Below are positions 55,346 to 61,825 of a stretch of 64,000 nucleotides of DNA, in pieces. Position numbers and translations under genes: made by a program. Position 1 is the stretch's first letter, and every line of letters starts with the position of its first letter. This stretch comes from Thioclava sediminum (GTDB taxonomy: Bacteria > Pseudomonadota > Alphaproteobacteria > Rhodobacterales > Rhodobacteraceae), in assembly GCF_002020355.1 (NCBI RefSeq), contig NZ_MPZV01000003.1, positions 62,001-126,000 on the forward strand, written 5' to 3'. A model generated the notes under the pieces. It made no database searches, had not been told where the DNA came from, and saw only the letters and a program-made list of their open reading frames with translations.

Positions 55346-57999
<2,654 letters not shown>

Positions 58000-58000
<1 letters not shown>

Positions 58001-58305
58001 TGGCAGGCGCATTCTGGATCGCCCATGTGAAGGTGCTCGACGACGAGGCCTATGGCAAATACGCCGAGGGCGCGGGCCCTGCGATCGCGAAACATGGCGG
58101 ACGGTTCCTCGCCCGTGGCGCGCGCTATGTGCAGCTCGAAGGCAATGACCGCGCGCGCAATGTCGTCGCTTGGTTCCCGTCTCTGGAAGCGGCCGAAACC
58201 TGCTACTACTCCGACGAGTATCAGGCGGCGCTCGCCCATGCCAAAGGCGCATCCGAGCGCGACCTGATGATCGTCGAGGCGATGGACGACGTCGAAATCA
58301 AATGA
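58000..58305 (+). CDS. DUF1330 protein
   Basis: A 101-residue protein of the DUF1330 type, a small ferredoxin-like alpha/beta fold. It has FWIAHVKVLDDEAYGKYAEGAG at the start and ARNVVAWFPSLEAAETCYYSDEYQ in the middle. It overlaps alaS by one base, so it is translated from the alaS message. Function is unknown for the family; a terminator follows. Confidence 0.88.
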
Positions 58306-58342
58306 AGATCGGCCTGTAAGGCACTGATCAGAAAGTATTTGG

Positions 58343-58365
58343 AAGGCGGCTTCGGCCGCCTTTTT
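58343..58365 (+). terminator. Terminator after the DUF1330 gene
   Basis: AAGGCGGC pairs with GCCGCCTT around loop TTCG, followed by TTTC. It ends the alaS transcript 38 bp after the stop, so the following leader region needs its own promoter. Confidence 0.85.
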
Positions 58366-58395
58366 CTATGATGTCGTACCCGGTCGTTTTTGCTC

Positions 58396-58425
58396 TGGAC
58401 CTTCGGGCACGCTGCGTCCTATGCT
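58396..58425 (+). promoter_or_regulatory. Candidate promoter for a leaderless cysS leader mRNA
   Basis: TGGACC (58396-58401) and TATGCT (58420-58425) are 18 bp apart. Transcription would start at about 58431-58433, on or next to the ATG of the leader peptide at 58432, which explains why that ATG has no ribosome site. Confidence 0.5.
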
Positions 58426-58431
58426 GCCGCC

Positions 58432-58473
58432 ATGACCACGAAGACCATCATCATCTGCTGCATTATCCGCTGA
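58432..58473 (+). CDS. Ile/Cys leader peptide upstream of cysS-cimA
   Basis: A 13-codon frame reads MTTKTIIICCIIR, then TGA. Five isoleucine codons flank two tandem cysteine codons, a pattern seen in amino-acid attenuation leaders. The downstream genes are cysS (charges Cys) and cimA (first step of isoleucine synthesis from pyruvate), so the two amino acids in the run match the two genes behind it. There is no Shine-Dalgarno; the promoter prediction places the start at the ATG itself, as known for trpL of rhizobia. This assignment is inference from sequence. Confidence 0.6.
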   Translation: MTTKTIIICCIIR

Positions 58474-58543
58474 CATACGTCACGCGGGCCGGTCTTCTCT
58501 TTCCAAATTTCTCATGACCTTGTAAGCCCGCCGGCAGGTGCCG
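58440..58543 (+). promoter_or_regulatory. Alternative pairing region, possible attenuator
   Basis: GAAGACC inside the leader (58440-58446) can pair perfectly with GGTCTTC (58491-58497). GCGGGC (58484-58489) can pair with GCCCGC (58526-58531), and GCCGG (58488-58492) with CCGGC (58531-58535). CGGC-AGGT-GCCG (58532-58543) is a further small hairpin. A ribosome stalled on the Ile/Cys run would cover the first segment and change the fold. No strong T-run follows, so a simple intrinsic terminator is not obvious; the switch may act on translation or on Rho access. Confidence 0.4.
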
Positions 58544-58563
58544 CCGACCCTTTGCGAGGACAC

Positions 58564-60072
58564 ATGACCCAGATCCGTTTGCGCAATTCCCTGACCCGGA
58601 AAGTCGAGGATTTTCGTCCGATCGATGCCGACAACGTGCGGATGTATCTCTGCGGCCCGACCGTTTACGACCGCGCGCATCTCGGCAACGCCCGTCCGGT
58701 GGTGGTGTTCGACGTGCTCTACCGGCTGCTGCGCCACGTCTATGGGCCGGAGCACGTCACCTATGTGCGCAATTTTACGGATGTGGATGACAAGATCAAC
58801 GCGACGGCGCTCGCGCGCAAGGAAGCCGGGGCCGAAGGGTCGCTGGAAGAGCTGATCCGCGCGCGGACCGAGGAAACCATCGGCTGGTATCATGCCGACA
58901 TGGACGCGCTCGGCGCCTTGCGTCCCGATCAGGAACCGCGCGCGACCGACTACATCGGCGCGATGATCGCGATGATCGAAACGCTGATCGAAGATGGTCA
59001 CGCCTATGCCGCCGAGGGGCATGTTCTGTTCCGGGTGCGCAGCTACAAGGATTACGGCGCGCTGTCCGGTCGGACGGTCGATGACATGATGGCGGGGGCC
59101 CGGGTTGAGGTCGCGCCCTTCAAGGAAGACCCGATGGATTTCGTGCTCTGGAAGCCCTCCGACGAGGGGCTGCCGGGCTGGGAGAGCCCGTGGGGTCGAG
59201 GCCGTCCGGGCTGGCATATCGAGTGCTCGGCCATGAGTTACGAATTGCTCGGCGCGTCGTTCGACATCCATGGCGGCGGCATCGACCTGCAATTCCCGCA
59301 CCACGAGAACGAGATCGCGCAGAGTTGCTGCGCGCATCCCGAGGGCTCCTTCGCGAACTACTGGCTGCATAACGAGATGCTGCAGGTCGAGGGCAAGAAG
59401 ATGTCCAAGAGCCTGGGGAATTTCTTCACCGTGCGGGATCTGCTGGACGGCCATGACGGCGAGAAGGGTATTCCGGGCGAGGTGATCCGCTTCGTGTTCC
59501 TGCAGACGCATTATACCAAGCCGATGGATTGGACGGCGGAGAAGGCGCGGCAGGCTGAGAGGACTTTGCGGCGCATTGCAGAGTTCTTGGCAGCGGATCC
59601 TCTTACGAAGCCTTGGATTGGCAGGCGATATGCAAAGCCGCCTCAAGAGTTCATTGACGCGCTTTCAAATGACCTTAATACGTCGCTGGCACTCTCCCTC
59701 GTGCGCAAGTATTTGAAAGAACGAGATGAGTTCAAGCTCATTGGGGCGCTTCGGCTCTTGGGATTTGACGACCAAGCCTTGGTACAGAAATTCTCGCAGT
59801 TCCAATTCGCAGCTTCCTCCAACGAATTTTCTTCAGGTTTTCGGATGTCCACTCGAGGAGACGAGGCATCGGAGAACCCAAATCGAATGACCGAACTGTA
59901 CAATCGCTTTTCCGAAATGCGTAAAGAGGCAATGGAAACCAAAGATTTCGCGCCGGTCGATGCAATGAAACAGGCGCTCGTCGCCGCAGGCGTCGAAGTG
60001 CGCATGTCCAAGGATGGCGTCGAACTGCTGCCTGGACCCGATTTCGACCCCGCGAAGCTGGAGGGCCTGTGA
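58564..60072 (+). CDS. cysS: Cysteinyl-tRNA synthetase, with an atypical internal segment
   Basis: A 502-residue class I synthetase. The HIGH-like motif is HLGN at 39-42, a zinc-ligand cysteine is at 30, and KMSKS is at 279-283. The catalytic core and DALR-type C-terminal helices are intact. Between about 59555 and 59975 (residues about 331-470) codons turn A/T-ending and GC falls clearly, unlike the rest, although the frame stays open. That segment covers the link to the tRNA-binding bundle. GCGAGGACAC precedes the ATG. The last base overlaps the next short frame (TGATG). An Ile/Cys leader lies upstream. Confidence 0.93.
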
Positions 60073-60206
60073 TGGCGCGCGGCTACAGCGACAAGGGGCG
60101 CGCCGGACCCGAGGGGGGGCGCAATCGCGCCCGCCCTGGGGGGCGGGTCGGGCGCGGCCCGGCGTGCCGCCGGGCGGAACGTAACCTCGACGGAGGCAAC
60201 CAATGA
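60072..60206 (+). CDS. 44-codon GC-rich frame bridging cysS and cimA
   Basis: The ATG shares its A with the cysS stop (TGATG) and the stop overlaps the cimA ATG by 4 bp (ATGA), so the frame fits exactly between the two genes. It reads [19 protein letters not shown] at the start and GGRVGRGPACRRAERNLDGG near the end, and it contains the dispersed repeat at 60145. It may be a small coupling protein, or a repeat-derived stretch kept open by selection on coupling, or chance. I do not know the family. Confidence 0.4.
   Translation: MARGYSDKGRAGPEGGRNRARPGGRVGRGPACRRAERNLDGGNQ
60145..60162. repeat. GC-rich dispersed repeat, copy 2
   Basis: GGGTCGGGCGCGGCCCGG is identical to 14532-14549. Here it lies inside the 44-codon frame and 41 bp before cimA. 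The hairpin CGGGC-GCG-GCCCG is the likely functional feature. Confidence 0.6.
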
Positions 60207-61825
60207 CCAAACAACGCCTCTATCTCTACGACACGACGCTCCGCGATGGGCAGCAATCGGCGGGCGTCCAGTTCTCGGTGCCTGAGAAGATCGAGATCGC
60301 AAAGGCGCTCGACGGGATTGGTATCGATTATATCGAGGGCGGCTGGCCCGGGGCGAATCCGACTGACAGCGATTTCTTCGAGGCGTGGCCCGAGACGCGG
60401 GCGACGTTCACCGCCTTCGGGATGACCAAGCGGGCAGGGCGCTCCGCCGCGAATGACGACGTGCTCGCGGGCGTCATGAACGCGAATACGCCCGCCGTCT
60501 GCCTCGTCGGCAAGACGCATGACTACCACGTCACCACCGCGCTCGGGATCACGCTGGAGGAAAACCTCGAGAATATCCGCGCCTCGGTTGCGCATATGGT
60601 GGCGCAAGGTCGCGAGGCGCTGTTCGACGCCGAGCATTTCTTCGACGGCTACAAGGCGAACCCCGACTATGCGCTGGAGTGCTGCCGCGCGGCCTATGAG
60701 GCCGGCGCGCGCTGGATCGTTCTGTGCGACACCAATGGCGGCACGCTGCCGGGCGAGATCGGCAAGATCGTTGAAGCGGTGATCGCGGCGGGCATTCCCG
60801 GCGACCGTCTCGGCATCCATTGCCATGACGACACCGGCAACGCCGTGGCTGGCAGCCTCGCGGCCATCGAGGCCGGTGCGCGCCAGATCCAAGGCACACT
60901 GAATGGGCTGGGAGAGCGCTGCGGCAACGCAAACCTGATCACGCTGATCCCGACGCTTCTGCTGAAAGAGCCCTACGCCTCGACGCTCGACACCGGGATC
61001 GCGCCCGAAAACCTGCGCGACATCACCAAGCTTTCGCGCAAGCTCGACGATATCCTGAACCGTGTGCCGCTGCGCTCCGCGCCCTATGTCGGCGCCTCGG
61101 CCTTCACCCATAAGGCGGGGCTGCATGCCTCGGCGATCCTAAAAAATCCAGACACTTACGAGCATATCGACCCCGCCGTGGTGGGGAACACGCGGCTGAT
61201 CCCGATGTCCAATCAGGCGGGCCAGTCGAACCTGCGTGCGCGGCTGAAAGGCATGGGGATCGAGGTCGCGAAGGACGATCCGCGCCTCGCCCGTATCCTC
61301 GATCTGATCAAGGAGCGCGAGGATCAGGGCTATGCCTATGACGGGGCGCAGGCGAGTTTCGAGCTGCTCGCGCGAGCGGAACTCGGGCAGTTGCCGAAGT
61401 TCTTCGAGGTGAAGCGCTACAAGGTCACGGTGGAGCGCCGCAAGAACCGCTACGACAAGATGGTCTCGATTTCCGAGGCGGTCGTGGTGGTGAAAGTCGG
61501 CGGGAAGAAGATGCTCTCGGTCTCGGAAAGCATGGACGAGCAGGGCCACGACCGCGGGCCGGTGAATGCGCTCTCGAAAGCGCTGTCGAAGGATCTCGGC
61601 CCCTATCAAAGCCTGATCGACGACATGAAACTGGTCGATTTCCGCGTCCGTATCACCCAAGGCGGCACCGAGGCCGTCACCCGCGTCATCATCGACAGCG
61701 AAGACGATGCGGGCCAGCGCTGGTCGACCGTGGGCGTGTCGCCGAACATAGTGGACGCGAGTTTCGAGGCGCTGCTGGATGCGATGATCTGGAAGCTGAT
61801 GCGCGACGGGGCGAAACCGGCATGA
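60203..61825 (+). CDS. cimA: Citramalate synthase
   Basis: A 540-residue enzyme of the LeuA/CimA type that condenses pyruvate and acetyl-CoA, the entry to isoleucine synthesis by the citramalate route. It starts YDTTLRDGQQSAGVQFSV, with GIHCHDDTGNAVA and GLGERCGNANLI in the TIM barrel and a C-terminal LeuA dimer/regulatory domain (about 400-540, DFRVRITQGGTEAVTRV). Length and the GVQFSV variant favour CimA over 2-isopropylmalate synthase. Its start overlaps the bridging frame, and its stop overlaps the next gene (ATGA). A purely biochemical check would settle the substrate. Confidence 0.85.
   Translation: MTKQRLYLYDTTLRDGQQSAGVQFSVPEKIEIAKALDGIGIDYIEGGWPGANPTDSDFFEAWPETRATFTAFGMTKRAGRSAANDDVLAGVMNANTPAVCLVGKTHDYHVTTALGITLEENLENIRASVAHMVAQGREALFDAEHFFDGYKANPDYALECCRAAYEAGARWIVLCDTNGGTLPGEIGKIVEAVIAAGIPGDRLGIHCHDDTGNAVAGSLAAIEAGARQIQGTLNGLGERCGNANLITLIPTLLLKEPYASTLDTGIAPENLRDITKLSRKLDDILNRVPLRSAPYVGASAFTHKAGLHASAILKNPDTYEHIDPAVVGNTRLIPMSNQAGQSNLRARLKGMGIEVAKDDPRLARILDLIKEREDQGYAYDGAQASFELLARAELGQLPKFFEVKRYKVTVERRKNRYDKMVSISEAVVVVKVGGKKMLSVSESMDEQGHDRGPVNALSKALSKDLGPYQSLIDDMKLVDFRVRITQGGTEAVTRVIIDSEDDAGQRWSTVGVSPNIVDASFEALLDAMIWKLMRDGAKPA

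Follow-up and report, generated by a model that had tools for sequence, protein, structure and literature searches.

In enterobacteria, one leader peptide can carry control codons for several amino acids, as thrL does for Thr and Ile and the leader of ilvGMEDA for Ile, Leu and Val, and a paper from 1987 is said to have dealt with the thr leader and its codons for Thr and Ile. In mycobacteria, polycysteine leaderless short ORFs reportedly attenuate operons according to the cysteine supply (work attributed to Canestrari in 2020). The leader that we have analysed is likewise leaderless and Cys-rich, but the mycobacterial leaders differ from it in phylum and, by the title of that work, in being restricted to Cys. 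With thrL and ilvL it shares the presence of codons for two amino acids (Ile 30% and Cys 22% of residues across its relatives) that match the genes behind it, cysS and cimA. However, whereas the amino acids of the thr and ilvGMEDA leaders belong to linked pathways, there is no metabolic relation between Cys, which here concerns charging, and Ile, which concerns synthesis, and our leader is without the ribosome site that thrL has.

The closest described element is uORFC-8-2 (Brewer et al. 2021, PMC8632094). According to the accessible part of that paper, it has 145 examples, which occur only before cysS of Rhodobacterales, and attenuation by Cys through stalling for Cys-tRNA is proposed for it. 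The locus studied here lies in a window (the whole stretch of DNA that was analysed, 64,000 nucleotides) on contig C3 of a 4.13-Mb genome, whose nearest named relative, judged by CysS, is Thioclava marina. Its features, all on the plus strand, are as follows.

58396-58425, + strand: putative leader promoter, with a -35-like TGGACC (58396-58401), an 18-nt spacer and a -10-like TATGCT (58420-58425); transcription is predicted to begin with the A of the ATG
58432-58473, + strand: leader ORF MTTKTIIICCIIR, read from the sequence; candidate control codons Ile 6-8, Cys 9-10 and Ile 11-12
58440-58446, + strand: 5' arm of stem P1, GAAGACC (fold and own-versus-swapped test)
58491-58497, + strand: 3' arm of stem P1, GGTCTTC (fold and own-versus-swapped test)
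58466-58488, + strand: hairpin P2, which spans the final codons and the stop; 58466-58474 pairs with 58479-58482 and 58484-58488
58484-58492, + strand: strand A, GCGGGCCGG, the 3' side of P2, with strand B as alternative partner
58493-58504, + strand: U-rich tract after P1, the imperfect tail of the proposed terminator, sharing positions with the -35-like box of the putative second promoter
58500-58528, + strand: candidate second promoter of cysS, with TTTCCA (58500-58505), 17 nt and TAAGCC (58523-58528)
58526-58535, + strand: strand B, GCCCGCCGGC, with A or the cysS ribosome-binding region as partner
58556-58560, + strand: Shine-Dalgarno-like GAGGA of cysS, from the sequence
58564-60072, + strand: cysS, cysteine--tRNA ligase (TIGR00435, 425.6 bits against a cut-off of 340)
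60203-61825, + strand: cimA, citramalate synthase (TIGR00977, 587 bits against a cut-off of 450)

As far as the accessible description of uORFC-8-2 goes, both elements stand directly 5' of cysS in Rhodobacterales, and both are AUG uORFs with tandem Cys codons and a preference for TGC over TGT. The published motif has two stems, the first of which holds the Cys codons, and in the window P1 encloses the Cys codons while P2 lies over the stop; we infer that P1 and P2 are these two stems. In the same description, the tandem Cys codons (CC) are usually codons 14-15, whereas here the first Cys of CC is codon 9 or 10 in 74 of the 94 leaders with CC. A 3' U-run serves as intrinsic terminator in the published motif; the window has a U-rich tract after P1 that may have this role, and a strict scan calls no terminator in it. 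Ile, cimA, the leaderless start, strand B and the second promoter figure in the present analysis and not in that part of the published account. The Cys half of the leader, as far as that account goes, is already described as uORFC-8-2. Since leaders for several amino acids are established (thr, ilv) and the Cys part is in the accessible pages of the earlier paper, the claim of the initial annotation that a dual leader would be a new form of attenuation is not supported. What is new is the variant formed by the Ile part and its link to cimA, and it can be tested. Among the papers listed by a literature search of mainly open journals, none was seen to connect Ile or cimA with uORFC-8-2. To a motif that is little described in the accessible literature, our reading, if true, adds a leaderless start, an extra pairing, a possible second promoter and a putative Ile arm. 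Our preferred reading, which we hold to be slightly on the probable side, is that of a leaderless ribosome-mediated attenuator of cysS-cimA that responds to the charging of tRNA-Cys and most probably to that of tRNA-Ile as well.

The leader ORF and its start

The leader begins with ATG ACC ACG AAG ACC, continues with three ATC codons, TGC TGC, ATT and ATC, and ends with CGC TGA. The two strands of the window together hold 292 ATG ORFs with a length of 8-20 codons, and none of them except this leader has at least two Cys and at least four Ile. A cysS match was present in 289 genomes; for comparison, the cysS loci of 160 of these were fetched, mostly in listing order and one locus per genus. This purposely included ten of the 14 genomes without a cimA match (of the others, G026 was already present as L017, and G180, G202 and G327 have no cysS match). 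A counterpart of the leader is found in 144 of the 160 loci, with 16 loci called leader-bearing and 16 leaderless by eye. In 57 of 80 named cysS loci, a tiny ORF approximately 130 nt 5' of cysS was called as leader, the usual end of which is ICCI(I/T/P)(R/C/G)-stop. Conservation of MTTKTIIICCIIR-type leaders is thus far beyond the chance expectation, and the 13-codon Ile/Cys frame picked out in the initial annotation is confirmed, as are cysS and cimA behind it by their TIGR00435 and TIGR00977 matches.

In this set of 144, for which the leader of each locus was chosen with a preference for ORFs rich in Ile and Cys, Ile accounts for 543 and Cys for 398 of 1808 residues, with Leu at 32, Val at 13 and Phe at 15; when this DNA is read in its two remaining frames, neither Ile nor Cys is among the top nine residues. 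Between three and five Ile are present in 124 leaders and at least two Cys in 132, the full ranges being 1-7 for Ile and 0-5 for Cys. Cys is encoded 368 times by TGC and 30 times by TGT.

In the profile of the 144 leaders anchored on the ATG, position -35 is T in 83%, position -12 is T or A in 93% and position -1 is C in 85%, and the profile is devoid of a Shine-Dalgarno-like signal. In 87 of the leaders, 6-7 nt separate the end of the best -10 box from the ATG (6 nt in the window, counted from TATGCT), and the spacer is 17 in 80. In the window itself, both boxes agree poorly with the strict consensus, and a strict consensus scan of 58300-58620 called neither a promoter nor a terminator; the same arrangement recurs in relatives. 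Because the -35 and -10 boxes keep a fixed distance from the ATG and no Shine-Dalgarno-like signal is seen, the leader very probably is leaderless, the first base of its transcript likely being the A of the ATG, and the comparison thus supports the promoter placement suggested earlier. Between the preceding ORF of 101 amino acids and this promoter, there is a further hairpin that has a T-run (its arms are 58343-58350 and 58355-58362), which the strict terminator scan did not flag.

Isoleucine codons and the tie to cimA

Codon changes were counted by parsimony on the cysS tree in 93 leaders with CC. The codon directly before CC changed 12, 17 and 33 times at positions 1, 2 and 3, the codon two before CC 20, 20 and 30 times, and the synonymous ATC and ATT swap freely at both places, which is the mark of amino-acid (coding-type) constraint on these Ile. 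The third codon before CC (26, 34 and 18) is not of the coding type. A count for the two Cys codons was set aside as circular, since the leaders were aligned on CC. Cys is present in 143 of 144 leaders, and CC itself occurs in 94 of 144. Behind CC, 78 of 82 leaders use ATT for Ile, as opposed to 533 of 2724 Ile codons (20%) in cysS genes, and this position therefore carries an additional, unexplained base-level constraint.

These observations bear on the explanation that we take most seriously besides our own, which we consider a tentative one with an appreciable chance of being right, namely that the leader is a Cys-only attenuator, as proposed in the accessible part of PMC8632094, and that Ile is kept for some other purpose, for instance to provide a G-poor unstructured stretch, a peptide that fits the exit tunnel, or slow decoding. 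The near-universal Cys and the base-level constraint behind CC would agree with this, whereas the free exchange of ATC and ATT before CC argues against it, as does the rarity of Val, Leu, Phe and Met where Ile is common. Three leaders have just 0-1 Ile despite an adjacent cimA (L128, L151, L232) and speak for Cys alone; conversely, there is one genus in which Ile is retained although the leader has no more than one Cys, and in which cimA adjoins cysS. It is seen in G029, with the leader MNAPNRIIGIIIGG and cimA 66 nt behind cysS, and in G345, with the leader MDAPNRLIGIIICG and cimA just behind cysS on the same contig.

The distribution of cimA also goes against a role of Cys alone. Among 155 loci with intact downstream sequence, 138 have the leader and cimA, 1 has the leader only, 11 have cimA only and 5 have neither (Fisher 3.5e-5), such that the leader is missing in five of the six loci without cimA behind cysS versus 11 of the 149 with it. 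On supported branches of the cysS tree, the set assembled blind to the leader gives 2 independent pairs; averaged, the leader follows cimA in 1.6 of these and goes the opposite way in 0.0, which is not significant. A larger set, chosen by adding to the 155 loci eight named loci picked for lacking both (giving 13 with neither) and leaving out named loci that have cimA without the leader, gives 6 independent pairs, 5.5 going the same way and 0.0 the opposite way (p ~0.03). The independent losses behind the association are few. Possibly, the leader and cimA were lost from the two ends of cysS in one rearrangement. Since the upstream neighbours vary widely among the leader-bearing named loci, acquiring a different one is not in itself enough to abolish the leader. 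A detached cimA that carries an Ile leader of its own was not found in the three cases examined, there being no such leader within 420 nt of cimA in G081, G336 and G337.

The sole leader without cimA belongs to genus g123, where none of three searched genomes has a CimA orthologue (best hits 34-36% identical; the best hit in G137 is 2-isopropylmalate synthase). The leaders of this genus, MDWICCLCRA (twice) and MEWICCPC, have kept Cys and lost the Ile run, which goes against Cys alone. It is the only lineage with Ile lost and Cys kept. Ile-rich leaders are also found in five fragmentary genomes in which no CimA orthologue was detected (G134, G146, G181, G215, G312). This would favour the Cys-only alternative, but the absence of cimA in these genomes is uncertain, because the contig ends within or just behind cysS in four of them and approximately 0.6 kb behind it in G134.

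The dual Ile/Cys readout suggested in the initial annotation thus is favoured by the comparison, through the constraint on Ile, the tie to cimA and the Cys-only leader where cimA is absent, but it is not proven, given the few losses and the five fragmentary genomes that could speak against it. For the more far-reaching idea that one leaderless leader integrates the charging of two metabolically unrelated tRNAs, Cys-tRNA and Ile-tRNA, and that its codons follow the content of the operon, Ile codons vanishing when cimA is lost, we see the arguments for and against in balance. If true, this would show that a leader peptide can be assembled one codon at a time to suit an operon whose enzymes are unrelated, and that its codon mix is rewritten upon gene loss, which would make the evolution of attenuation testable across the nearly 300 sampled genera.

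An alternative that we judge to be improbable is nascent-peptide arrest, in which the Ile/Cys peptide would stall the ribosome on a small molecule or redox state and tRNA charging would not be the signal. The conservation of Ile before CC as an amino acid would suit such a peptide, but Cys and Ile drift in position and number, the CC tandem being limited to 94 of 144 leaders, and this is what one expects of control codons rather than of an arrest motif.

Alternative structures and a proposed mechanism

The minimum-energy fold of the window contains P1 around P2; the pairing of A with B (58484-58492 with 58526-58535) is outside this fold, and the stem is supported across genera. RNAalifold on a plain MAFFT alignment (66 of 70 leaders; L036, L055, L099 and L101 left out) returned merely 3 pairs. 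P1 drifts in register and is misaligned by MAFFT, and for this reason duplex energies of each locus's own arms were compared with those of arms swapped between loci. This was done in 127 of the 144 leaders, 17 being dropped because they had no recognisable core within 24 nt, and is uncorrected for relatedness. Own arms are more stable than swapped ones for P1 (-9.72 versus -7.43 kcal/mol, z -12.1), P2 (-11.81 versus -10.30 kcal/mol, z -11.4) and A:B (-16.32 versus -14.87 kcal/mol, z -7.9), with 0 of 5000 permutations reaching the observed value in each case, while three neighbouring control pairings gave z -0.3, 0.1 and 1.6. Both alternative pairings named at the outset, P1 and A:B, have therefore found support across genera. 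As strand A belongs to P2 and also pairs with B, P2 and A:B are mutually exclusive. In L190, L225, L235 and L264, the stretch from the leader stop to the GCGGG core appears by eye to be enlarged by an extra hairpin of about 20 nt or more. Rfam covariance models, those of T-box and other leader families included, gave two matches in 57900-60500, both below the gathering score (E 0.78 and 7.3).

The attenuator reading of the leader is supported by this comparison, as are the conserved ORF, the start geometry, the pairing of P1, P2 and A:B, the presence of Cys and Ile and the link to cimA. Transcription would start at the leader ATG, and a ribosome would begin at once. With ample Cys and Ile, it would finish and leave, codons 4-5 would pair with 58491-58497 to form P1 around P2, and this structure beside the U-rich tract would stop transcription. 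If Cys or Ile is short, the ribosome would stand on codons 6-12 and cover the 5' arms of P1 and/or P2, such that the polymerase would proceed and the freed strand A could pair with B. Basal expression of cysS would come from the second promoter. We infer the terminating role of P1 and P2, stalling as the signal, the sensing of Ile and the second promoter. The simplest output would be termination at the U-rich tract, as is also put forward in the accessible part of the uORFC-8-2 paper; the tract directly follows P1, the strict scan calls no terminator there, and its T-run may in part serve as a -35 box.

A footprint model was applied to 77 leaders. In this model, a ribosome stalled at the control codons would hide an arm of the alternative structures, as an attenuator requires: a stall is predicted to cover at least half of a P1 or P2 arm at 207 of the 228 Cys codons and at 277 of the 300 Ile codons. 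Since the same holds for 121 of 124 Thr codons, the geometry allows Cys and Ile but does not single them out. A ribosome on the stop would cover P2 in 77 of 77. In the window, with codon 9 in the A site, the modelled footprint would extend over approximately 58440-58468 and thus the entire 5' arm of P1.

A translational arm, in which B would free the cysS ribosome site, is a weak part of the model. As the main mode of control, with A:B releasing the site from B and no terminator involved, it is very unlikely: in an 85-leader subset of the 144, A:B (z -5.0) and B:C (z -3.9, C being the cysS ribosome region) are better than swapped and A:C is not, and the terminator scan was negative, but the predicted change in accessibility of the site is small on average (from 0.402 to 0.424 in 143 leaders) and nil in the window (from 0.257 to 0.258). 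In the window's fold, the Shine-Dalgarno sequence and start codon of cysS are paired with 58512-58525 whether the leader is masked or not, and the segments of this region (58512-58567) look kept in the nearest relatives.

A candidate second promoter and the neighbouring genes

The stretch 58500-58528 may be a second promoter of cysS that partly shares the T-run of the proposed terminator. An element resembling TTGCTAAG, preceded by a T-rich box whose end lies 14 nt upstream of it, recurs with at least 6 of 8 matches in 96 of 143 leader loci; among control stretches taken from inside cysS, 8 of 143 reach this score. By eye, boxes of this kind were also seen in several loci devoid of the leader (L107, L138, L142, L165, L187).

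Upstream of the leader lies a gene that we take to be alaS from its translation. Between the two is an ORF of 101 amino acids (58000-58305), which has no NCBIfam match and may be DUF1330-like. Inside cysS, the GC content falls to approximately 0.50 at 59600-59999, with 0.56-0.67 in neighbouring stretches; this segment encodes the C-terminal part of CysS, where the matches of many relatives end near residue 401. The gap between cysS and cimA (60073-60202) is very GC-rich and contains long imperfect inverted repeats, with 20-nt arms at 60103-60122 and 60127-60146 and 17-nt arms at 60095-60111 and 60144-60160.
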